Shown: positions 5,235 to 38,134 of the stretch, piece after piece | How the letters are laid out: the number at the start of each line of letters is the position of its first letter | Numbering within the stretch: the first letter of the stretch is position 1 | DNA from: Bryobacterales bacterium | GTDB taxonomy: Bacteria > Acidobacteriota > Terriglobia > Bryobacterales > Bryobacteraceae | Assembly (NCBI GenBank): GCA_003167255.1 | Contig: PMTR01000140.1 | Coordinates: 80,967-119,125 of the forward strand | DNA length: 38,159 bases | Reading direction: 5' to 3' | Notes under the pieces: model-generated | What the model saw: only the letters and a program-made list of their open reading frames with translations | Database searches by the model: none | What the model was told of the DNA's origin: nothing | Program-made: the position numbers and the translations under genes

Positions 5235-6170
5235 ATGAGCCACTTTGGGATCACGCAAGCCATTCATTTCGTTGAGCGCTATGGGTATGCGCTGCTGTTC
5301 TTTTGGGTACTTGTCGAACAGGGGGCGCTGCCGATTCCTTCGGCTCCGCTGCTGGTTGCCGCGGGGGCGCTGGTGCGCACGGGGCGGCTGAACGCGGTGC
5401 TGGCGGTCGCGTGCTGCGTGGCCGGTGCTCTGGTCGCGGACAGCGTCTGGTTTCATCTCGGGCGCCGGCACGGCAAGAGCGTACTGCGGTTCCTCTGCCG
5501 CGTGTCACTCGAGCCCGATTCCTGCGTGCGCCAGACTGAGAACGCTTTCCTCAAATACGGCCTGAACACGCTGCTTTTTGCCAAATTCATTCCGGGGTTG
5601 AACGCCGTGGCGGCTCCTCTGGCCGGCGATTCCGGAGTCGGCGCCGTCCGCTTTCTGGCGGTCGACACGCTTGGGATTGTAGTCTGGAGCGCCACCTATA
5701 TCAGCGTCGGATTCATCTTTAGCGACCAATTGGAGCTAGTGCTCGCCTATGCCCAGCGGTTGGGCTCCGGACTTGTGATCCTGGTGGTTGGCCTGTTCGC
5801 AGCGTGGATCCTCTGGAAGTTCATGCAGCGACAAAGATTCCTCAAGCAGATCGAAGTGGCCCGCATCGCGCCCGAAGAACTGCGCGAGCGAATGGACGCC
5901 GGCGAAGACTTTTTCATCGTGGACGTTCGCAGCAGCCTGGCAAGCGACTCGAGCACCCTGCCCGGTGCGATCCGCCTCTCCACCGCGGATCTGACCGTCA
6001 ACTGGCAACAGGTTCCCCGCGACCGCGAAATCATTGTCTTTTGCAGTTGACCGAACGAAGCCTCCAGCGCCCGTGTGGCGCTGCTCTTGAAATCGCAGGG
6101 CATCACGCGGGTGCGCCCGTTGCGGGGCGGTGTTGAGGCGTGGGAGAGAATGATGCAGGCTCGGGGCTGA
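5235..6170 (+). CDS. DedA-rhodanese fusion, candidate selenoprotein (in-frame TGA = Sec272)
   Basis: Residues 1-200 are a DedA/SNARE-associated multispanning membrane domain (VEQGALPIPSAPLLVAAGAL, FAKFIPGLNAVAAPLAG). From about 205 a cytoplasmic rhodanese domain begins (PEELRERMDAGEDFFIVDVRS). The frame meets TGA at 6048-6050 directly after the strand IIVFCS, in the active loop. It then stays open with clear rhodanese sequence (PNEASSARVALLLKSQG, RVRPLRGGVEAW) to a TGA at 6168-6170, giving 311 residues. In relatives I recall this loop as C-S-C-P-N-E, so TGA replaces the second Cys; the usual rhodanese nucleophile would be C270. A SECIS-like hairpin follows the TGA. Without recoding the product is 271 residues and lacks the end of its active loop. 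The alternative is a point nonsense mutation (TGC/TGT to TGA). The start ATG at 5235 gives a typical DedA N-terminus. Confidence 0.7.
6065..6083 (+). promoter_or_regulatory. Candidate bacterial SECIS hairpin in DedA-rhodanese gene
   Basis: A perfect 7-bp stem CAGCGCC / GGCGCTG with a five-base loop CGTGT, starting 14 bases after the TGA at 6048-6050, so the apical loop begins 21 bases after it. The general bacterial SECIS model asks for a stem-loop just downstream of UGA, about 16-37 bases from UGA to the loop, with a G among the first two loop bases; here the second loop base is G. GC-rich coding DNA makes chance hairpins common, so this is supportive only. Confidence 0.5.
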
Positions 6171-16723: not shown

Positions 16724-18070
16724 TTATAACGGTCGGAAGCGCGCGCTGAAATGGCGCAGGGTGGGTGGCTCCTCCAGGATCTCCATGCCGCGGATTTCCT
16801 GCTTGCGGGCGTTGACTTCGAGAATGGCCTCCACCACGTAATCGATGTGGCTCTGGGTATAGACGCGGCGGGGAATGGCGAGGCGCAGCAATTCATGTTG
16901 CGCCGCGGCGCCGAACATCACGGAGCCGATTTCGACCGACCGGATGCCGGCGTGACGGTAGAGCTCCACGGCCAAAGCCTGGCCGGGAAACTGGTGCGGC
17001 GGAATGTGCGGCAGCATGCGGGCGGCATCGATATAGATGGCATGACCGCCGGGCGGTTCCACGATGGGGACGCCGTGGTCGGCGATGTGGCGGCCCAGAT
17101 AGTCGGTGGAGACGATGCGGTATCGCAGGTAGTCGGGATCGAGGACTTCTTCTAGGCCCACGGCGATGGCGTCGAGATCGCGGCCCGCCAGACCGCCGTA
17201 AGTGGGAAAGCCTTCGGTGAGGATGAGCAGATTGGTTTCGAGCTGGGCGACGCGGTCGTCGTTGGTGGAAAGCAGGCCGCCGATATTGGCGAAGGCATCT
17301 TTCTTGGCGGAGAAGGTGCAGCCGTCGGCGAGAGAAAACATTTTCTGCGCGATGCGTTTGGGCGACCAATCGGCATAGCCGGGCTCGCGCTCGCGGATGA
17401 ACCAGGCGTTTTCGGCGAAGCGGCAGGCGTCCAGGTAAAAGGGAATGGAGTGGCGCGCGGTGACGCGGCGCACTGCCTCGATATTGGCCATGGAGACGGG
17501 CTGGCCGCCGCCGGAATTATTGGTGATGGTGAGCATCGCCAGCGGGATGTTGGCGGCGCCTTCGCGGGCGATGAGCGATTCGAGAGCGGCCACGTCCATG
17601 TTGCCCTTGAAATCCAGGCGCGCCTGCGTGTCGGCGGCTTCCGGAATGGGGAGATCGACGGCTCGGGCGCCGGTGAATTCAATGTTGGCGCGAGTGGTAT
17701 CGAAGTGGGTGTTGGAGGGAACCACGTGCCCCGGCTTGCACATCACGGTAAAGAGGATGCGCTCGGCGGCGCGGCCCTGGTGCGTGGGGATCATGTGGCG
17801 GAAGCCGGTAAGCTCGTCGGCCACACGTTTGAGGCGAAAGAAGCTCTCGCTGCCGGCGTAGGATTCGTCGCCGCGCATGATGGCGGCCCACTGTTCGGTG
17901 GACATGGCGCTGGTGCCGGAATCGGTGAGGAGATCGATGAGGATGTGGCGCGCGGCGATGAGGAAGAGATTATACCCGGCTTGTTCGAGGAAGCCTTGGC
18001 GCTCCGCGGGCGTGGTGTGACGGAGCGGTTCCACGCTCTTGATGCGGAAAGGTTCGATGATGGTGTTCAC
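16724..18070 (-). CDS. tnaA: Tryptophanase (tyrosine phenol-lyase-like backbone)
   Basis: A 448-residue PLP-dependent beta-eliminating lyase; the PLP Lys is in TFSAKKDAFANIGG (about 256). The N-terminus (EPFRIKSVEPL, LLTDSGTSAMSTEQWAAIMRGDESYAGSE) and PIVEPPGGHA resemble tyrosine phenol-lyase. Three substrate-site positions instead match tryptophanase as I recall it: HFDTTR (Asp, Thr in TPL), RSVEIGS (Val and Ile, Met and Arg in TPL) and LRHFSARF at the C-terminus (His, Phe in TPL). Best call: tryptophanase, releasing indole, pyruvate and ammonia. No TnaC leader or TnaB permease was seen. It is the first gene of a minus-strand run into modB. Confidence 0.85.
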   Translation of the reverse strand: MNTIIEPFRIKSVEPLRHTTPAERQGFLEQAGYNLFLIAARHILIDLLTDSGTSAMSTEQWAAIMRGDESYAGSESFFRLKRVADELTGFRHMIPTHQGRAAERILFTVMCKPGHVVPSNTHFDTTRANIEFTGARAVDLPIPEAADTQARLDFKGNMDVAALESLIAREGAANIPLAMLTITNNSGGGQPVSMANIEAVRRVTARHSIPFYLDACRFAENAWFIREREPGYADWSPKRIAQKMFSLADGCTFSAKKDAFANIGGLLSTNDDRVAQLETNLLILTEGFPTYGGLAGRDLDAIAVGLEEVLDPDYLRYRIVSTDYLGRHIADHGVPIVEPPGGHAIYIDAARMLPHIPPHQFPGQALAVELYRHAGIRSVEIGSVMFGAAAQHELLRLAIPRRVYTQSHIDYVVEAILEVNARKQEIRGMEILEEPPTLRHFSARFRPL

Positions 18071-18171
18071 TGAAGCAGATTATCGCACCAGGCTCGGGGG
18101 AACTGCGCTCAGCACGCTTCCTGGCGGGTGCGCGAAATAGCCGCCAATGGAGAAAATCCTAACGTAAAAGT

Positions 18172-18263
18172 ACACCAATCAGAGCCGCGACCGTTAGGGA
18201 GCGAATGCGGCACCCGCGCGCGGAGATCAGGCGCTCCCTTACGGTCGCGGCTCTGATTGGTGT
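18172..18263. repeat. Long inverted repeat, 32-bp arms with one mismatch
   Basis: Arms at 18172-18203 and 18232-18263 (beginning ACACCAATCAGAGCCGCGAC and its complement) pair at 31 of 32 positions around a 28-base GC-rich centre. No ORF lies inside. The structure resembles a MITE or a large REP-type palindrome, and it marks the left border of the accessory island. Between it and the tryptophanase start (18071-18171) I see no gene. Confidence 0.8.
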
Positions 18264-18428
18264 CCAGCCTGCTTCACTTCTGTGTCCTGCACCCCTTCCT
18301 GGCTTGTCTAGCGCGGTCGGATTGGCTACCATACAAGCTCCCTTTTTATGAGCGAAATCGCGCCCCTGGTCAACGGTGCCGCCCGGAACATTCGAATGGG
18401 ATTCGGAATTCAGAATTAGGAAGCCTTC

Positions 18429-18641
18429 ATGAAATGCATGCACTGCCAAGGGAAGATGAAGAAAGGTCAGGCGCCTTTTCATATTGACCGCAAGGGGTAT
18501 CATCTGTCATTAGAAGCAGTGCCCGCCTGGGTATGCGGCCAATGCGGTGAACCGTATTTCGAGGAATCCGAAGTGAAGACGATTCAACGTTTGCTGCTTC
18601 AGTTGGACAGGCAAACCGCGAATCTGGCTTCAGTTGCATGA
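18429..18641 (+). CDS. YgiT-type zinc-finger protein (MqsA-like N-domain), antitoxin-like
   Basis: A 70-residue protein with two CxxC pairs, MKCMHCQGKM (3-6) and WVCGQCGEPYF (about 36-39), the zinc-binding fold of the MqsA/YgiT N-terminal domain, followed by a short helix (about 45-65) where the HTH of full MqsA would be. Such short proteins are usually the second gene of a toxin-antitoxin pair with a DUF4258 toxin upstream. Here the 160 bases upstream have no recognisable toxin, so it is an orphan. An SD-like AGGA sits about eight bases before the ATG at 18429. Confidence 0.8.
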   Translation: MKCMHCQGKMKKGQAPFHIDRKGYHLSLEAVPAWVCGQCGEPYFEESEVKTIQRLLLQLDRQTANLASVA

Positions 18642-19050
18642 CACAGGGGAACCGCGGCGCCGGTTCCTCCCGATCAAACGCCGTAGGGCCTGCGATCCAC
18701 ATGGCGGTGTCGCCGCCAAAGCATCCGCAGAGTATACACTCAGCGGGGTTTGGAGGTGAGCGCCTCCGTTGCGATTTCGGCGCGTCGTCGCCTGCGTTTC
18801 ACTGTGTCGAACGCCTTGGTCGAGAGGCACAAGGAACAAACGGGCGTTACGCGGCCAAGTGGACTGTTCCCGGCCAATCGCGCAAGTCGTTCGCTTTCAC
18901 AAGCCTAAGAAAATACACCAATTAGCTGCCTAATGGGCTGAAGTCCGCGGGGCAAACCGCTGATCTGCCGTTCTAGGTAGCGAGAGCAGATGTGATCCCT
19001 GCTATTCTCCTGCTATTCTGATGTACTTCGAGCGTGCAACTGCTACACTG
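18642..19050. other. Intergenic region without a recognisable gene
   Basis: About 400 bases between the zinc-finger gene and the methyltransferase. Short open frames exist on both strands but none resembles a known family or has a convincing ribosome site. The only signal is the promoter-like element at its right end. The region may hold decayed genes. Confidence 0.5.
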
Positions 19051-19056
19051 TATAAT
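19027..19056 (+). promoter_or_regulatory. Candidate sigma-70 promoter of methyltransferase operon
   Basis: A perfect TATAAT at 19051-19056 with a poor -35 candidate (TTCGAG at 19027-19032, 18-base spacer). It lies upstream of the methyltransferase/HNH pair in an AT-richer stretch. The -10 match is exact but the -35 is weak. Confidence 0.45.
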
Positions 19057-19159
19057 GTGGCCGTGAACAATATATGCCCAAAATGTTTTGGCCCCGTTTC
19101 TCCAGTCGCGCCTGGGATCTGAGCTTGGTCGCAGTGACCGGCTGAAAAGAACCAAGAGG

Positions 19160-21796
19160 ATGGGTGCCGCCTTGTTGACGCCAACTTCCATCAAAGCTCC
19201 ACTCCGCGAATGCGGATATCGCCCCGATTTGCTCCGGACCGATTTTCTGCTCGGGGAAGGCCAGACCATACCGTTGGTGGCATTTGCCCAGTCGCCAGCG
19301 GACTCCCGGTCGGCCTGTGTGGCCGTCCTATCAGAAACAAGCGGTCCGCGCTCGGCCGTGGAGGCATGCAGACCCTTGGGAGCGCCTTTAGTCTTCGTTT
19401 GTTTTCAGGACACGCTTCAGTGGTGGAAGCAAGGAGCTCAGTCTCCGGAATATCGAGAGAGCATTCCCGCAAATAACGTTGAGCGATTCTTTCAGGACAA
19501 CCTCGGAAAATTCAAACCGGACGCGGTCTACCGGGCAAAAACTTGGGGGCGTTTCCGACCGGAGTATCAACTCAGCTTCGTCGACCTCGGACTCCTGCCG
19601 CTCGTTGAGGAGCAGGTAGGCAAATCGCTCGGGACACTCGTCGAAAGGAACGTGGCCGAACTGAAGAGTTCCATCGGCTGGGAAGACGTGACTGATGACC
19701 AGGGCCACTGGCTACTACAAACGGTCTTCTGGCTCGTTTCGGGGAAGATCCTCCGGGACAAGCGGGTCGAAAGGTTCGCAGACCTGAACCTGAACGATGT
19801 TGAGGAGGTTTTCCGGAGGCTCGGCAGGCACTATGGCACGGAGCCACTGGCAGTCGACTCAAAGAAAAAGCTTGAAGGCCTGCGGGAATCGGCTCGCATT
19901 ATCGACCAGTTCAGCAGTCTGGCACTCACAACAACCGAGTCTCTCGCATACGTTTACGAGAACACGCTCATTTCGAAGGAGACCAGGTCGGCCTTCGGAA
20001 CACACAGGACGCCTTCTTTCATTGTTGATTATGTGGTCGGCAACCTGACTGACTGGCTAGAAGAGATTCCGGTCAACGACCGAAGCGTGTTCGAACCAGC
20101 ATGTGGGCACGCCGCTTTTCTCGTCTCCGCGATGCGACTGCTCACAGAGATGCTACCGTCTGAGAAGGCAATACCTAGCCGGCGTGGACCATATCTGCGC
20201 AGTCGAATGCACGGCACGGACATTGAACCATTTGCGCTTGAATTGGCCCGTTTGTCGCTCACGCTTACGGACATTCCTAATCCTGACGGATGGGATTTAG
20301 AAGTCCAGGATATGTTCCTTAGTGATTGTCTCGCGGTGCAGGCAAGGAAGAATACAATTCTGCTTGCCAATCCGCCGTTTGATAACTTCACGCCGCAGGA
20401 ACAACAGCAGTACCGGGACCACGCCTCGAGCGTGCGCTTCGTCAATAAATCCGCTGAAATGCTTTGGCGAACTCTGCCCAATCTGCCGGAAGGTGGCATA
20501 TTCGGCGTTGTGCTTCCTCAGACTGTCTTGCATAGCGACAACGCCAGGGATCTTCGCAAGTTTTTGGTCAGCGAGTGCGAGTTAAGGGAGATTTGCCTTT
20601 TCCCTGACAAGGTCTTTTCGTTTTCGGACGCCGAGTCGGCGGTTCTAGTTGGGCGGCGCAAGACGGTCAGCGGCCAGAACGAAGTTCGCTATCGGCGTAT
20701 TCGCGAACGCGAACTCCCCCGCTTCAGATCCGACTACATCGCCTCGACCACGCGAACCGATTGCCAGTCGCGATTCTCGGTTGACACTTCATTTTCTTTG
20801 CGCCTGCCCGAGTTGGAAGAGGTCTGGAGTGCATGTGCCGACAATCCGACGCTCTCCGATATTGCTGTGGTCGAGCAAGGAATTATATATCATGGACAGC
20901 ACCTACGGCGGGGCGCCACGGCGTACTCAACGGAGAAGTTTCCCGGGAGCCAGCCCGGCTTCGCGTTATTTGACCGTGACATTCAGTTGCATCAGTTACC
21001 CCAGCGTTACTGGTTGAACTTGGCCCCGGCGGTGATTCGTTGGGCGGGCAGTCGGCCCGCCGGAGGCATTTCCCAGGTTCTCGTTAACTACGCCCCCGCG
21101 AGTCGCGGCCCCTGGCGACTAAAAGCGCTAATTGATAAGCAGGGGCACCCACTCACAAGCCGATTCATTCCGGTACGTCCAACGACGTCCTCATACTCAC
21201 TTGAGACCCTTTGGGCACTGCTCAACTCGCCGCTCGCGAATGCTTATGCCTATTCGCATCTAGGTAAACGCGATAACATGGTCGGCGACATCCGAAAGAT
21301 ACCTATCCCCAAAATGCGTTCCTTTGAAGGAGTCGAACGTGCGGCGACTGCGTATCTTGCAGCAGCTTCGTCCGAAACGGCTTCGGCGAAGCTGGAAAGG
21401 CTCCTACTGCGCGTCGACTCCGAGGTTCTCAAGCTGTATGGCCTGCCACTCCACATCGAGCACCGACTGCTTGGATTATTCAATGATTGGAAACGTGTCG
21501 GGGTGCCATTCGCACAGACCAGATTTCTACCGCAGGAACTCGAGGGCGTGATACGCTTTTCCGACTTCCTTCAGTTCGAGGAGGACTGGTCAATCACAAA
21601 TCGCGAGCGGGGCATGCTCATCGACAAGAACATTTCAGGGAGGCTGAACGCGGAGGAACGGACCCGTCTTGCCGCATTGCAGGCATACACCGACTATCAC
21701 ATTGAAAGGGCGGCTCCGCGCCCTACCCACACCATCGATGAACTTGAGAATCGGTTGTTTTCGGGCTCCCAGACGAAGGGCAAGAAAGCCCGATGA
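19160..21796 (+). CDS. N6-adenine DNA methyltransferase (type I/IIG-like)
   Basis: An 878-residue protein. About 290 residues of unassigned N-terminal domain come before the methyltransferase core: SAM-binding motif I FEPACGHAAFLVSAM (about 315-329), HGTDIEPFALELARLSL and catalytic motif IV LLANPPFDNF (about 405-414). A target-recognition-like region follows (from about 560; VVEQGIIYHGQHLRRG) with a helical C-terminus. It would methylate adenine in a specific DNA site. The ATG at 19160 is preferred because family-like sequence begins at LLTPTSIKAPLRECG; a TTG at 19088 would add 24 residues. Its stop overlaps the HNH gene (ATGA), which suggests a two-gene restriction-modification unit. Lower GC and different codon use than the flanks suggest horizontal transfer. 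Confidence 0.87.
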   Translation: MGAALLTPTSIKAPLRECGYRPDLLRTDFLLGEGQTIPLVAFAQSPADSRSACVAVLSETSGPRSAVEACRPLGAPLVFVCFQDTLQWWKQGAQSPEYRESIPANNVERFFQDNLGKFKPDAVYRAKTWGRFRPEYQLSFVDLGLLPLVEEQVGKSLGTLVERNVAELKSSIGWEDVTDDQGHWLLQTVFWLVSGKILRDKRVERFADLNLNDVEEVFRRLGRHYGTEPLAVDSKKKLEGLRESARIIDQFSSLALTTTESLAYVYENTLISKETRSAFGTHRTPSFIVDYVVGNLTDWLEEIPVNDRSVFEPACGHAAFLVSAMRLLTEMLPSEKAIPSRRGPYLRSRMHGTDIEPFALELARLSLTLTDIPNPDGWDLEVQDMFLSDCLAVQARKNTILLANPPFDNFTPQEQQQYRDHASSVRFVNKSAEMLWRTLPNLPEGGIFGVVLPQTVLHSDNARDLRKFLVSECELREICLFPDKVFSFSDAESAVLVGRRKTVSGQNEVRYRRIRERELPRFRSDYIASTTRTDCQSRFSVDTSFSLRLPELEEVWSACADNPTLSDIAVVEQGIIYHGQHLRRGATAYSTEKFPGSQPGFALFDRDIQLHQLPQRYWLNLAPAVIRWAGSRPAGGISQVLVNYAPASRGPWRLKALIDKQGHPLTSRFIPVRPTTSSYSLETLWALLNSPLANAYAYSHLGKRDNMVGDIRKIPIPKMRSFEGVERAATAYLAAASSETASAKLERLLLRVDSEVLKLYGLPLHIEHRLLGLFNDWKRVGVPFAQTRFLPQELEGVIRFSDFLQFEEDWSITNRERGMLIDKNISGRLNAEERTRLAALQAYTDYHIERAAPRPTHTIDELENRLFSGSQTKGKKAR

Positions 21797-22389
21797 TAGG
21801 ATTTGAGTATCCAACCTCGCCGCACGCGAGGCGGCATGGCCCCGCGGGCTACAAGGACTACAGCAGCTATCGGGATTGGCTGCGCGACGAGTTTACTTTC
21901 CGCTGTGTGTACTGCCTTCATCGTGAACTGTGGAATAGCCGCGGCGGGGCGTTTCATGTGGAGCACTTCATGCCGGCCAGTGTGGATCCGGATGGCGAGT
22001 GCGAGTACTCAAATCTTCTCTACGCATGTGCAACCTGCAACGAAACGAAGGAAGCCATCCTTGGCCTTCCGAACCCTTGTCTAGTGGCGTTCAACGATTG
22101 CCTTCGGATCATGGCTGATGGCCACATTGACGCGTTGAACTCTGATGGCGAGAAGCTCAAACAGGTGCTGCGATTGGACAGTGAGAAGAATGTCCGCGAT
22201 CGCTACCGGTGGATGCGAGCCCTTGAGGCGCTCAGGACGAGTGACCCCGACCTCTACCAAGAATACATGTCGTTCCCTGGGGACCTGCCCGACCTCCGGA
22301 CTAAGCGAGTCCCAAACACTAGGCCCGACGGAGTCGTGAACTGCTACTTCGTTCTTCGAGAACGCGGCGAGTTGCCGCCGACTTACTAG
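21793..22389 (+). CDS. HNH endonuclease partnered with methyltransferase
   Basis: A 198-residue protein with a zinc-ribbon HNH nuclease domain at about residues 36-95. The first Cys pair is FRCVYC, the catalytic block is FHVEHFMPAS, and NLLYACATCNETK carries the Asn and second Cys pair. The C-terminal half (about 100-198) is unassigned. Overlap with the methyltransferase stop means coupled translation. The most likely role is DNA cleavage in a restriction-modification system; recognition is probably supplied by the methyltransferase subunit. A small hairpin (CGGTCG/CGACCG, 22396-22409) follows the stop and may help terminate. I see no gene between 22390 and 22527. Confidence 0.87.
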   Translation: MIGFEYPTSPHARRHGPAGYKDYSSYRDWLRDEFTFRCVYCLHRELWNSRGGAFHVEHFMPASVDPDGECEYSNLLYACATCNETKEAILGLPNPCLVAFNDCLRIMADGHIDALNSDGEKLKQVLRLDSEKNVRDRYRWMRALEALRTSDPDLYQEYMSFPGDLPDLRTKRVPNTRPDGVVNCYFVLRERGELPPTY

Positions 22390-22527
22390 AAAGATCGGTC
22401 GAGCGACCGCTGGCCGGGGTTACACAGCCCCGATAGATGGCGCCCGGTATGGTCCTGTCACTTTGACGGTTTGTCGCCATCGCCGACGATGACGTTGCTG
22501 ATTGGCCGCTGGGGCAGACTCGATCCG

Positions 22528-23149: not shown

Positions 23150-23240
23150 TTTCGCCCCGTTCCGGGGCTCCTCAATTTGCTATGCGGACCCAGGGCTCAC
23201 GCCCTGGGCTATGCTCTGTCGCCCTCCGGGCTTTGGGAAC
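23150..23240. repeat. Dispersed hairpin repeat, CCCAGGGC copy
   Basis: CGCCCCGTTCCGGGG is followed by CCCAGGGC-TCAC-GCCCTGGG (23189-23208) and CTATG. The same layout recurs at 37163-37225, where the stem reads CCCACGGC/GCCGTGGG, again followed by CTATG. The stem base differs on both sides, keeping the pair. It sits between the antitoxin operator and the end of the alginate-lyase-like gene. Confidence 0.65.
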
Positions 23241-34457: not shown

Positions 34458-36829
34458 TTCCGGGATATCTCCTTCGATTTTTCGCTGTTCGCGTCTTTCT
34501 GGCCGGCGGCCAGCTCGCCGCGGCGCGATTGGAACGGCAGGCTCTGTACTGCCTCGTGGATCAAGGTCTGAAAGTGGTAGCCATCGGCGGCCAGCGCCTT
34601 GTTGATAAGGTCCAGAGCCCGTTTGTCGTAGGGTTCCATTCCGCGCCCGAGCGCGTAGGTCATGATCTTTTCGGTCAGGCAACGCGACACCTCGGGCATA
34701 CTGTGGACAAGCACCGCTCGCATTCCGGCCGCCGTCGAGAAGGACTGGCCGCCCGGTATCGTGCCGGCTGCGTCTATGGGAAATTTTCCATCTTGGGTCC
34801 GCCATTTGCCAATCGCGTCATAATTCTCGAGGCCGAATCCAAGCACGTCCATCTTGCCGTGGCAAGACGCGCAGACCGGGTCCGAACGGTGAGCTTCGAG
34901 CTGCTTCCGAAGGGACACATCGCTGCCGACCTTCGAATCGTCGAGAGGCGGAACGTCGGGCGGCGGCGGGGGTGGCGGGGCGCCCAGGAGATTGTTCAGG
35001 ATGTATTTGCCGCGGATGGTCGGCGAAGTGCGGTTCGGGTAGCTCGACACCGCCAGCACGCTGCCCTGCGTAAGAATGCCGCCACGCTGATCGGTAGCCA
35101 ACTCGACTTTGCGGAAGTCGGGGCCTTTCACGCCGTCGATGCCGTAGTACTTTGCCAGATGCTCGTTCAGGAACGTGTACTTCGCATCGATAAAGTCGGC
35201 AATCGGCCGGTTTTCGCTCAGGACGTATTGGAAGAACAGCGCCGTTTCAGTGCGCAACTCTTCCTTGATTTGCGGTGTCCACGCGGGGAATTTCTTCGGG
35301 TCCGGGTTGAGCGAGTCCAGATTACGAACCTCAAGCCACTGGCCCGCGAAATTGTCGGCGAAGGAGGCCGCTTTCTTATCCGTCATCATCCGCTTCACCT
35401 GCGCGTCCAGAACGGCTGGCTCGTGTAGTCTGTTGGTTGCGGCGAGGTTCAGCAATTCGTCGTCGGGCATCGAACTCCAAAGGAAATAGCTCAGCCTGGT
35501 GGCAAGTTCGACGTCGGACAGTAGGTGCGACTCGGGGTCCGCCGGGTTGGGATCGCGCTCGATCCGGAAGAGGAATTCGGGAGATACGAGCATGGCCTCA
35601 ATTGCGAGCTGGATGCCCTGCTCGGTGGATTGCCCCTCCCCTTTCGCCAGGGTCACGAACTTCATGAGTCCCGCCACTTCAGCCTTCGTCACAGGGCGGC
35701 GGAAGGCGTGATGCGCGAGGTTGGTCACGATCCTTTCGACGCAGGCCTGCCCGGTAGAGGGGTCGCAGATGAGGATTTTCTTCCGGCTTGCCTTCTCGAC
35801 TTTGGCCGCGAACGGGCCGATAAAAGAAATGGAGCCGATGAACTTGTTCTTTTTGTCGTCGTACGCGTCTTTGTCGCTGGTGATTTTGGCGGCGAACTCG
35901 TCATTCACGAAGGCGGCGCGGAAGACGTGATCGCCCTCGGGCAAAAAGACCCGCATCTCTCCATCCGAGAACGGATTGAAATAGACGAGTGTCGAGGGTT
36001 TGGTCTCGACGTCCATGGTGTTGAGAAGCTGGCCGTCCATGAAGAACGCCAACTGGACCGGTTTGGCATCGGGTCCGCGCTCGCCGGGAAAGCCGAAATG
36101 AATCGTATATTCCCCGTCGAAATCGATGCGCTGACTCCCTTCGACCGTGCTGTAGTCCAGGCGCCGGAGCGTCCTGGTCTGGAGGTCGCAGGTCACCGTG
36201 ATCGGCGTCTTCGGCAGCGGGTCCGCCCCCATGGCGCGCGATGAGATGGCTTCGGCAGCGTTGAGATACTTCTCCATCAGCACCGGAGAGACGGTCAGGA
36301 TTTCCGCAATGTTGTCGAAGCCGTAGCCGGAATCGTCGGTCGGGAAGTCCCTCTCGGCGCGGAAGTCGACGGCTAACAGATCCCGGATCGTGTTGCGGTA
36401 TTCGTTCCGGTTCAGGCGTTTCGCAGTGACGCGGCCAGGGTCCGGCGGGATTGCGGCGTCGGCCTTATCGAACTCCCCCTCGATAAACTTCACCAGCGCC
36501 GTCATCTGATCCTGGGGCGGGCGCGGGATGCCCTTGGGTGGCATATCGCCGGATTCGATCTTCCGGGTGATCTTCTCCCACGAAGCCCGGTCCCAAAAAA
36601 CTGTGGCGGGATCAAGATAGAGCAGCAGGTTGAGGTCCCCCGACATAACGGTTGCGTTATGACAGTTCGAGCAGACGTCCTTCAGAATTGGCTTGACCTT
36701 GGCTTCGAAGCCGGCAGCATCGACCACGGGCTTCGGCGCCACCGGCGTGGCGGGCACAGCCAGTATGTGGGCTGCGGTAAACAAAGCTGCGCACACCAGC
36801 GTTGGCGTGAGTCCAACTGAGTATCGCAA
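34454..36829 (-). CDS. DUF1587/1592/1588/1585 planctomycete-type cytochrome c protein
   Basis: A 791-residue exported protein. A first CxxCH haem motif is in DVCSNCHNATVMSG (about residue 54), then DUF1587 (RLNRNEYRNTIRDLLAVD), a carbohydrate-binding-like beta domain (about 215-350), DUF1595/1592 (HHAFRRPVTKAE; TRLSYFLWSSMPDDEL), DUF1588 (RGGILTQGSVLAVSSYPNRTSPTIRGKYILNNLLG, a poly-Pro run, then a second haem motif CASCHGKMDVLGFGLENYDAIGKWR) and DUF1585 at the end. Likely periplasmic redox or polysaccharide-related. A TTG at 36829 with SD AGGGGAG gives a signal peptide directly; a TTG at 36889 is the longer option. Confidence 0.88.
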   Translation of the reverse strand: MRYSVGLTPTLVCAALFTAAHILAVPATPVAPKPVVDAAGFEAKVKPILKDVCSNCHNATVMSGDLNLLLYLDPATVFWDRASWEKITRKIESGDMPPKGIPRPPQDQMTALVKFIEGEFDKADAAIPPDPGRVTAKRLNRNEYRNTIRDLLAVDFRAERDFPTDDSGYGFDNIAEILTVSPVLMEKYLNAAEAISSRAMGADPLPKTPITVTCDLQTRTLRRLDYSTVEGSQRIDFDGEYTIHFGFPGERGPDAKPVQLAFFMDGQLLNTMDVETKPSTLVYFNPFSDGEMRVFLPEGDHVFRAAFVNDEFAAKITSDKDAYDDKKNKFIGSISFIGPFAAKVEKASRKKILICDPSTGQACVERIVTNLAHHAFRRPVTKAEVAGLMKFVTLAKGEGQSTEQGIQLAIEAMLVSPEFLFRIERDPNPADPESHLLSDVELATRLSYFLWSSMPDDELLNLAATNRLHEPAVLDAQVKRMMTDKKAASFADNFAGQWLEVRNLDSLNPDPKKFPAWTPQIKEELRTETALFFQYVLSENRPIADFIDAKYTFLNEHLAKYYGIDGVKGPDFRKVELATDQRGGILTQGSVLAVSSYPNRTSPTIRGKYILNNLLGAPPPPPPPDVPPLDDSKVGSDVSLRKQLEAHRSDPVCASCHGKMDVLGFGLENYDAIGKWRTQDGKFPIDAAGTIPGGQSFSTAAGMRAVLVHSMPEVSRCLTEKIMTYALGRGMEPYDKRALDLINKALAADGYHFQTLIHEAVQSLPFQSRRGELAAGQKDANSEKSKEISRK

Positions 36830-37084
36830 TATCCGCTCCCCTCTGAGAATGGCTTGGGAGAGCACCTGGAAATCCTTGGCCCTCGCCAACCCTCAGGCAC
36901 TCCTCTAACGCTCTGCCAGCTTGGAAACAGCTTATCACAAGCATCAAAGCTCCGCGAACTCCTGGTTACACTGGGGTGCGCGACTTGGAAGTGGTGGGTT
37001 TGCGGATTCCAAGAGAATTCGCGGGGATCTTTGCGTAGCAGTACGCAAGGACGCTTCTCCAGCCCGTAGGGCGCAAGATATTAG

Positions 37085-37225
37085 CCCACGGCGTGAGCCG
37101 TGGGAATGGGGCGTGCAGGGAAGAGCCCCCGGAGGGGGCGGAAGATGGCGCCGCCGCAATCTTCCGCCCCGTTCCGGGGCTTCGTGAATCTCGCGCTTCA
37201 CCCACGGCTTGCGCCGTGGGCTATG
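37085..37225. repeat. Array of perfect hairpins in a 450-base intergenic gap
   Basis: In the gap 36830-37287 five hairpins follow one another: CCCACGGC/GCCGTGGG (37085-37104), GCCCCC/GGGGGC (37125-37139), GGGGCGGAAGA/TCTTCCGCCCC (37135-37170), GCCCC/GGGGC (37166-37180), and CCCACGGC/GCCGTGGG (37201-37220) followed by CTATG. Some are mutually exclusive. The right half has the same layout as 23150-23240. No gene is recognised here. Confidence 0.7.
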
Positions 37226-37287
37226 TTCTTCCGCTCTTACGAGCTTTGGTTAGCAAGCGATTTTGGATACGTTAGCGAACTTCTGAG

Positions 37288-37536
37288 GTGACCGGGAATC
37301 TTTGCCTTGGTTTGCCCTGGACGGGACCAAATGACTGGAACGTTGCTAGGAGATTCGGGCAGGCCATTGCGCCCTCATACGGTACACTGTTTGTATTCCA
37401 CGTGGTGTTCGGCCAGTTCATCGCGCTGGCTACTGTAAGCACGTCGCGTGGGATCGGCCTCTACATGAAGGCTTTCCCGAAAAGCCGGGCGGCGGCCGAA
37501 ACGATAACGAAGGGAATGGAACTGGAGCATGCATGA
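37288..37536 (+). CDS. Doubtful ORF upstream of AhpD-like gene
   Basis: An 82-residue frame from a GTG, with one hydrophobic stretch (SYGTLFVFHVVFGQFIALATV, about 30-50) and a polar tail. It ends two bases before the AhpD-like ATG at 37538, which would fit a coupled gene, but I recognise no family and the first half lies next to the hairpin repeat. It could be the decayed end of a membrane protein. Confidence 0.25.
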   Translation: MTGNLCLGLPWTGPNDWNVARRFGQAIAPSYGTLFVFHVVFGQFIALATVSTSRGIGLYMKAFPKSRAAAETITKGMELEHA

Positions 37537-37537
37537 A

Positions 37538-38134
37538 ATGGAGCCGATGTTTCTACCCGGAGTGGAGCGGAACGCCCAGCCCGGACCCTATCGCGACCTC
37601 ATCCAGATGATGCGCGCGAAAGGGGCGGAATACCCGCAGATCTGGCACATGTTCGCCTTCCTGCCCCAGGCCACGCAGCATCTGAGCCGCTTCACGGAGG
37701 AGATCATGCGCGGTCCGGCACCGCTGACGCCGGGCATTCGGGAGTTGATCGCGGCGTATACTTCGTATCGCAACGATTGCCCGTTTTGACTGAAATCCCA
37801 CGCCGCAGGTGCGGCGGAACTGTTGGGCGACGAGGCGTTGGTGTGGGCGGTTCTGCGCGACCTGGAGAGTTCGCCGCTTGACGAAAAGCACAAGGCGTTG
37901 TTCCGTTTTGTGGATAAGGTCAACCACGATTCGCCGCGTATTACGCCGGAAGACATGCAGCCGGCATACGCCGCGGGATGGACCGACGATGCGATTTACT
38001 TTGCCATTACGGTGTGCGCGCTGTTCAATTTCTACAATCGCTGGATCGATGCCAGCGGAGTGCACGCCATGTCCGGCGAGGCTCACCGCGAAGGCGGGAA
38101 GCGCATCGCCACGCAGGGATACGCGGGAAGCTGA
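37538..38134 (+). CDS. AhpD-like peroxidase-related protein, candidate selenoprotein (CxxU)
   Basis: A 198-residue carboxymuconolactone decarboxylase/AhpD-fold protein if the TGA at 37787-37789 is read as selenocysteine (residue 84 from this start). The active-site helix reads SYRNDCPF-U-LKSH: C-x-x-U followed by His four residues later, matching the family C-x-x-C-x-x-x-H, with Sec in place of the second, reactive Cys. The frame stays open and family-like after the TGA (AAGAAELLGDEALVWAVL, KALFRFVDKVNHD, WTDDAIYFAITVCALFNFYNRW). A SECIS-like stem-loop follows the TGA. AhpD-like CxxU selenoproteins are, to my knowledge, described in bacteria. The alternative is a nonsense mutation. The ATG at 37538 has a GGAG ten bases upstream; an ATG at 37529 would add three residues. 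Confidence 0.75.
37801..37816 (+). promoter_or_regulatory. Candidate bacterial SECIS hairpin in AhpD-like gene
   Basis: A perfect 6-bp stem CGCCGC / GCGGCG capped by AGGT, starting 11 bases after the TGA, so the apical loop begins 17 bases after it. The loop has G at its second position, and GCAGGT resembles the GCAGGUCUGC tip of the E. coli fdhF SECIS. It meets the general distance and loop rules for bacterial SECIS elements. Confidence 0.55.

Follow-up and report, generated by a model that had tools for sequence, protein, structure and literature searches.

Near the end of the window (the whole 38,159-nt stretch of Bryobacterales DNA analyzed here) lies an AhpD-like reading frame that is seemingly broken by a stop codon, and the question that this locus raises is whether it is a disabled gene or a single gene whose TGA is read as selenocysteine (Sec). 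The preliminary description, made from the window sequence, favored the second answer. It reported a TGA within CPF-TGA-LKSH with an open frame on both sides and a hairpin 11 bases behind it, proposed that Sec replaces the second Cys of the AhpD CxxC motif, and predicted that gene callers would split the gene. As checks, it named SECIS folding, a search for selC and selB, and the conservation of the TGA in related genomes, with random stops in relatives or missing Sec-decoding genes counting against Sec. Both the frame and the hairpin are exactly where they were described (Table 1). Translation from the ATG through the TGA gives ...SYRNDCPF-U-LKSHAAGAAELL..., with the motif CPF-U-LKSH. As foreseen, the list of open reading frames (ORFs) of 100 aa or more has this frame cut at the TGA and contains, in the frame of the gene, just the downstream part, 37823-38134 (103 aa, with a TTG start). 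The readthrough protein matched the Pfam CMD domain (E 8.4e-8) and, at 88.4 bits, exceeded the cut-off (81.8) of the TIGR01926 peroxidase-related enzymes, its redox motif being CxxU (CPFU). The contig ends 25 nt past the stop codon of the gene.

Table 1. Features of the window discussed in the text, with positions counted from its first nucleotide
Feature	Position	Strand	Details
AhpD-like (peroxidase-related, TIGR01926) gene, predicted selenoprotein	37538..38134	+	ATG at 37538; ordinary TGA stop at 38132-38134; 198 residues, predicted Sec at 84
In-frame TGA at the second CxxU redox position; putative Sec codon (U84)	37787..37789	+	Frame reading; conservation among relatives
TGC codon of Cys81, putative resolving residue of CxxU	37778..37780	+	Invariant in the relatives' alignment
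GAG codon of Glu69, 12 residues before Cys81	37742..37744	+	Invariant; cf. Glu118/Cys130 of M. tuberculosis AhpD
CAC codon of His88, 4 residues after U84	37799..37801	+	Invariant; cf. His137 after Cys133
Bacterial SECIS-type hairpin CGCCGC-AGGT-GCGGCG	37801..37816	+	6 bp; CGCCGC 37801-37806, AGGT 37807-37810, GCGGCG 37811-37816
VTT (DedA-like) membrane domain-rhodanese fusion gene	5235-6170	+	In-frame TGA at 6048-6050; C-S-U-P-N; CSUPNEASSAR
Acido-Lenti-1 RNA element (Rfam RF01687)	23189-23232	+	
Acido-Lenti-1 RNA element (Rfam RF01687)	37061-37104	-	
Acido-Lenti-1 RNA element (Rfam RF01687)	37201-37245	+	

The conservation of the TGA was assessed in two surveys. A search of genome contigs yielded 28 related loci (65-89% identity), and all 28 carry TGA at the U84 codon. 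The search could not have favored TGA, since of its six patterns one had Cys at residue 84 and the other five lay elsewhere in the protein. When 151 genomes of the class were searched with a profile, 75 gave matches; at the orthologue level (>160 bits, a cut chosen for the present analysis), the TGA form was present in 22 genomes and a form without TGA in 5. Instead of random stops, each TGA-form orthologue match holds exactly one internal stop, which is always TGA. Among the non-TGA orthologues, the codon is TGC (Cys) in genomes G080, G020, G123, and G050 and TCC (Ser) in G057; listed by locus, it is TGC in L060, L062, L063, and L070 and TCC in L071. In this family, then, homologues have Cys at the redox position where the in-frame UGA is conserved. 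A further AhpD-like homologue, more distantly related and likewise with one internal TGA, was observed in 41 acidobacterial genomes (class-wide profile matches, 43-83 bits); in G020, such a homologue shares a contig (C258) with selB and tRNA-Sec.

Decoding of UGA as Sec requires a dedicated machinery, and the search for selC and selB was positive: the window's genome (98.85% complete) encodes SelA (498.9 bits), SelB (342.2 bits), and SelD (367.3 bits), all above their cut-offs, together with SelC, a tRNA-Sec of 73.2 bits with the ARAGORN anticodon tca. Across the class, SelB is above cut-off in 115 of 151 genomes, and it accompanies the TGA form in 22 of 22 genomes and the Cys/Ser form in 2 of 5 (Fisher p = 0.003, relatedness ignored); three of the five Cys/Ser orthologues hence sit in genomes without detected SelB. 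A tRNA-Sec match above 58 bits was found in 20 of the 22 TGA-form genomes, the exceptions being G148 (77% complete) and G051 (97%), both with SelB. When distant homologues are included, 57 of the 59 genomes with any TGA-bearing match have SelB, and the two without it, G092 (84% complete) and G132 (91%), each gave a tRNA-Sec match above 72 bits. The count of tRNA-Sec over the Rfam cut-off (124 of 151 genomes) is overstated, because the Rfam gathering score lets tRNA-Ser through; a 48-bit match in the window's genome is tRNA-Ser according to ARAGORN.

The hairpin downstream of the TGA fits the published model of bacterial SECIS elements, which has an apical loop of 3-9 nt with G in one of its first two positions, an upper stem of 4-16 bp, a UGA-to-loop distance of 16-37 nt, and a minimum free energy (MFE) of -7.5 kcal/mol or lower (PMC13188914, in the part of that source describing the model). 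In the window, the loop AGGU is 4 nt long with G at position 2, the stem has 6 bp, the gaps from the TGA to stem and loop are 11 and 17 nt, and the 50 nt from the UGA onward fold with an MFE of -15.9 kcal/mol. Such a stem would arise in the window alone with a chance of P = 0.19 under synonymous recoding, and the SECIS claim therefore rests on comparison across genes. The folding set comprised 55 rows: the window and 54 loci (L017-L072, leaving out the window's own copy L045 and the distant homologue L046). L070 and L071 were not recognized by the motif used and were read separately, so that 50 TGA and 3 Cys genes remained; merging four repeats reduced the former to 46 distinct TGA genes. In these 46 genes, chosen for having TGA, the TGAs share one alignment column. 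The third base of the His88 codon doubles as the first hairpin base, and third-codon bases of the stem pair with one another: His88.3-Ala93.3, Ala89.3-Ala92.3, and, at the loop, Ala90.3-Val/Gly91.3. Pair 88.3-93.3 is CG in 37 genes, TG in 5, TA in 2, and mismatched in 2; pair 89.3-92.3 is CG in 41, TA in 3, TG in 1, and GG in 1; and pair 90.3-91.3 is GC in 27, AT in 15, GT in 1, and CT in 3. Val at residue 91 (38 genes) is never encoded by GTG, although this is the commonest Val codon elsewhere in the genes (43%). The loop is GGTC in 26 genes, AGTT in 12, AGGT in 3, CGGT in 3, GGGT in 1, and GGGC in 1, so that the window carries one of the rarer types.

Of the 46 TGA genes, 41 have all six stem pairs, whereas 9.4 would be expected from family codon usage (the sequences being related and not independent); the remaining 5 lack one stem pair. 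In one alignment of the 44 distinct 33-nt stretches from these genes, 97.4% of 308 cells pair, at most 79% do so when the partner is slid out of register, and both sides are changed in 18 cells, a number reached by none of 500 shuffles (5.5 +/- 1.6). Two of the five covariation measures computed were weaker: as many pairs with both sides changed (3) occurred in 40 of 500 shuffles and as many further pair types (7) in 38 of 500. The loop-closing pair switched at least 9 times on a quick tree of 53 rows; with only 4 independent comparisons on well-supported branches, this covariation does not reach significance. Because this tree is unrooted, a direction of change between Sec and Cys, either way, is a matter of inference. 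The non-TGA orthologues keep 4 (L060), 5 (L062), 4 (L063), 3 (L070), and 3 (L071) stem pairs; none of the 5 Cys/Ser orthologues thus has the full stem, in contrast to 41 of the 46 genes with TGA (Fisher p = 0.0001, without correction for relatedness). The Cys form L063 appears telling in this comparison, since its residues are nearly unchanged (CMKAHAAVSA) while its stem is incomplete (4 of 6 pairs). Folding energy relative to synonymous recoding was also tried as a discriminator and rejected; the mean z of the 46 Sec genes (-0.70) is hardly separated from the values of the three Cys genes (-1.07, -0.24, and -0.18), and pair counts in a fixed register were therefore used.

Two other explanations of the interrupted frame were weighed against Sec. 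A nonsense mutation or a sequencing error may have split an ordinary Cys AhpD-like gene, as the cut ORF and the position of the gene at a contig end could suggest. Such damage would hardly recur at one codon in all 28 of the other records, and the sequence behind the TGA does not look like that of a decaying gene: in each of the 46 distinct TGA genes the frame remains open there for 100 codons or more, and the median pairwise dN/dS is 0.213 upstream of the TGA (413 pairs) and 0.219 downstream (391 pairs). These ratios were computed for pairs with dS under 1.5 on genes cut at the first stop, for which reason openness was judged by counting codons behind the TGA. The open codons and the almost equal purifying selection (dN/dS) on both sides argue that the downstream part is kept as protein, and we regard the split gene as an extremely improbable account. 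An open frame, by itself, would also fit a UGA that is read as Trp under a reassigned code or leaks through near-cognate readthrough. The gene itself, however, terminates at an ordinary TGA, the TGA-form orthologues hold a single internal TGA each, and Trp occupies this position in none of the five non-TGA orthologues, of which four have Cys and one has Ser; moreover, the genome has the full Sec machinery, the TGA form goes with SelB, and the hairpin covaries. Non-Sec decoding of this kind is therefore very unlikely. Most likely, then, the seemingly broken gene is one gene with its stop read as Sec, and from these sequence comparisons we conclude that the UGA would be decoded as Sec in place of the second Cys of AhpD. 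The locus as a whole can be assigned with high confidence to an AhpD-like CMD-fold selenoprotein, with UGA-84 decoded by means of SelB and the hairpin and an AhpD-type chemistry attributed by analogy.

AhpD acts as the reductant of AhpC via a lipoylated partner. In the 28-row alignment of relatives, which leaves out the partial L039, Glu69, Cys81, residue 84, and His88 are invariant, and the spacing E-x11-CxxU-x3-H is that of Glu118, Cys130, Cys133, and His137 in Mycobacterium tuberculosis AhpD. U84 matches Cys133 by this spacing, which bears out the proposal that Sec takes the place of the second CxxC Cys. The AhpD proton relay consists of Glu118, Cys130, His132, Cys133, and His137, of which His132 is not absolutely conserved among AhpD proteins, being Tyr in PA0269 (PMC3141380, in the passage on the relay). 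The classical five-residue relay is incomplete in the window protein, in which E69, C81, U84, and H88 fit but residue 83 is Phe instead of His or Tyr. An AlphaFold model built from the 28-row alignment was of moderate quality (pLDDT 74.8, pTM 0.76), with residues 1-60 poorly modeled. It resembled peroxidase-related AhpD proteins, among them 3c1l (Z 15.9, rmsd 2.2 over 138) and 6k40 (Deinococcus radiodurans; Z 15.4); these two, like 2prr, 2oyo, and 2pfx, share sequence family and fold with the window protein (Z 14.7-15.9). The Sec of the window protein corresponds to Cys in 2pfx and 3c1l, and its Phe to Tyr (CxYC). M. tuberculosis AhpD (1knc, 1gu9) shares the residue spacing and gave Z 10.4 with rmsd 2.8-2.9 over 129, which is not strong on its own for a helical fold; unlike the window protein, to which it is 12-14% identical over the aligned part, it has Cys133 for Sec and His132 for Phe. 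The debrominase Bmp8 and sestrin appeared in the fold search too; as the CMD fold holds these as well, it does not settle the substrate.

By these comparisons, SelB carrying Sec-tRNA(Sec) would bind the hairpin 17 nt downstream of UGA-84, which would then be read as Sec to give CPFU. By analogy to AhpD, Sec84 would be the attacking, "peroxidatic" residue, whose selenolate reacts with a hydroperoxide or another oxidized or electrophilic substrate; Cys81 would resolve it as a selenenylsulfide, Glu69 and His88 may assist proton transfer, and a thiol or dithiol partner would reduce the selenenylsulfide. A peroxidase function is the one that this analogy would predict.

Selenoproteins of this kind are already known. 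AhpD-like CxxU selenoproteins of COG2128 have been catalogued since 2005, with 27 sequences in the Sargasso Sea set (PMC1088965) and 299 "AhpD-like 1" selenoproteins in the GOS set (PMC2398784), and reviews list them under COG2128 or TIGR01926 (PMC9312934, PMC13188914); the comparative evidence in the present case is unusually good. The passages on AhpD-like selenoproteins in these accounts and reviews name no acidobacterial member. Acidobacteria have been credited with four selenoproteins of three families (PMC1794560) and the acidobacterium Occallatibacter riparius with three known selenoprotein genes (PMC12013277), none of them named in the respective passages. Our search of the open-licence literature on acidobacterial and Solibacter selenoproteins found no study of this gene. 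The Sargasso/GOS proteins share with the window gene the TIGR01926 family, the CxxU motif, and a SECIS-like hairpin behind the UGA; the window gene differs, as far as descriptions alone can set them apart, in belonging to an acidobacterial soil lineage and in its CPFU motif. The alkylhydroperoxidase-related (seleno)protein family NF041238 (AhpD_rel_CFYUT) is homologous over residues 68-179 and has CxxU, but the window protein, at 30 bits versus a cut-off of 175, is not a member.

The genomic neighborhood was inspected for hints at the substrate. As far as the contig extends, the window's copy stands by itself, with no MFS transporter gene beside it. The ~650 nt upstream of the gene contain two inverted Acido-Lenti-1 RNA elements, and a blastn search of 36501-37537 against the relatives' loci gave no match outside the window's own contig. 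These two elements form an inverted pair inside an imperfect inverted repeat of ~188 nt (72%). Among the 50 loci with at least 800 nt downstream, an MFS transporter gene follows on the same strand in 25 (24 TGA, 1 Cys), and its estimated distance is within 40 nt or overlapping in 24 of these 25; it lies directly behind or overlaps the Sec-AhpD gene in L021, L024, L027, L035, L053, and others. Four loci (L047, L048, L050, and L052) are second copies of the same genomes with identical proteins, without which the count is 21 of 46. The best named relatives of the MFS neighbor are lactate and oxalate/formate transporters (monocarboxylate-type), matched below their cut-offs. Counting second copies, 17 of 49 loci have a TonB/outer-membrane-receptor-type ORF upstream.

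The recurrent MFS neighbor hints at a dedicated substrate. Rather than a general peroxidase, the Sec protein might be a redox enzyme devoted to one substrate together with the MFS transporter and the TonB-type receptor, for example reducing a single imported or exported hydroperoxide or halogenated acid. Besides the two neighbors, the listing of the CMD-fold debrominase Bmp8 in the fold search is compatible with such a role. Against it, four of the 25 MFS loci are the genomes counted twice, the closest relatives of the window (L017-L020) lack the MFS gene, no close MFS relative was found in the window's genome (best E 2.1e-6, 31% identity), and neighborhood is not function; we hold this role to be possible but rather unlikely. 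Still more tentatively, the acidobacterial Sec-AhpD could be, instead of a general antioxidant, the redox enzyme of an uptake/efflux cassette made up of a TonB-type receptor, Sec-AhpD, and a lactate/oxalate-type MFS transporter, reducing or detoxifying one organic-acid hydroperoxide or a related compound, with the lineage of the window having kept the enzyme alone.

The preliminary description counted the AhpD-like gene as the second of its kind, and the first that this implies is most likely the VTT-rhodanese gene with its TGA at 6048. Of 20 loci fetched for the latter, 17 were recognized by motif scan; TGA occupies the same codon in 14 (own copy included) and Cys in 3. The protein scored 71.6 bits against the rhodanese_LYCAU (seleno)protein family NF041203, below the cut-off of 115. 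A GCGCC...GGCGC repeat follows many of the TGA forms and, by eye, looks disturbed in the Cys forms. A Sec reading of this gene has support similar to that for the AhpD-like gene. Elsewhere in the window, a stretch at about 18000-22400 has a G+C content of 0.56-0.57 versus 0.59-0.66 in the other 2-kb blocks and contains a 902-aa ORF with an NPPF motif, which we take to be DNA-methyltransferase/type II restriction-like, and a 198-aa ORF with CVYC/HVEH motifs, presumably HNH-like; it is possibly a mobile restriction-modification island.

Collectively, the orthologues with Sec and hairpin, set beside Cys/Ser orthologues without an intact hairpin, several of them in genomes without detected SelB, amount to a natural experiment, and the three third-codon pairs of the hairpin point to the SECIS positions on which selection may act. 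For the substrate of AhpD-like selenoproteins, the recurrent transporter neighbor provides a lead that can be tested. Because a standard ORF call cuts the gene in two, this AhpD-like enzyme may have been missed or misannotated in many soil acidobacterial genomes.
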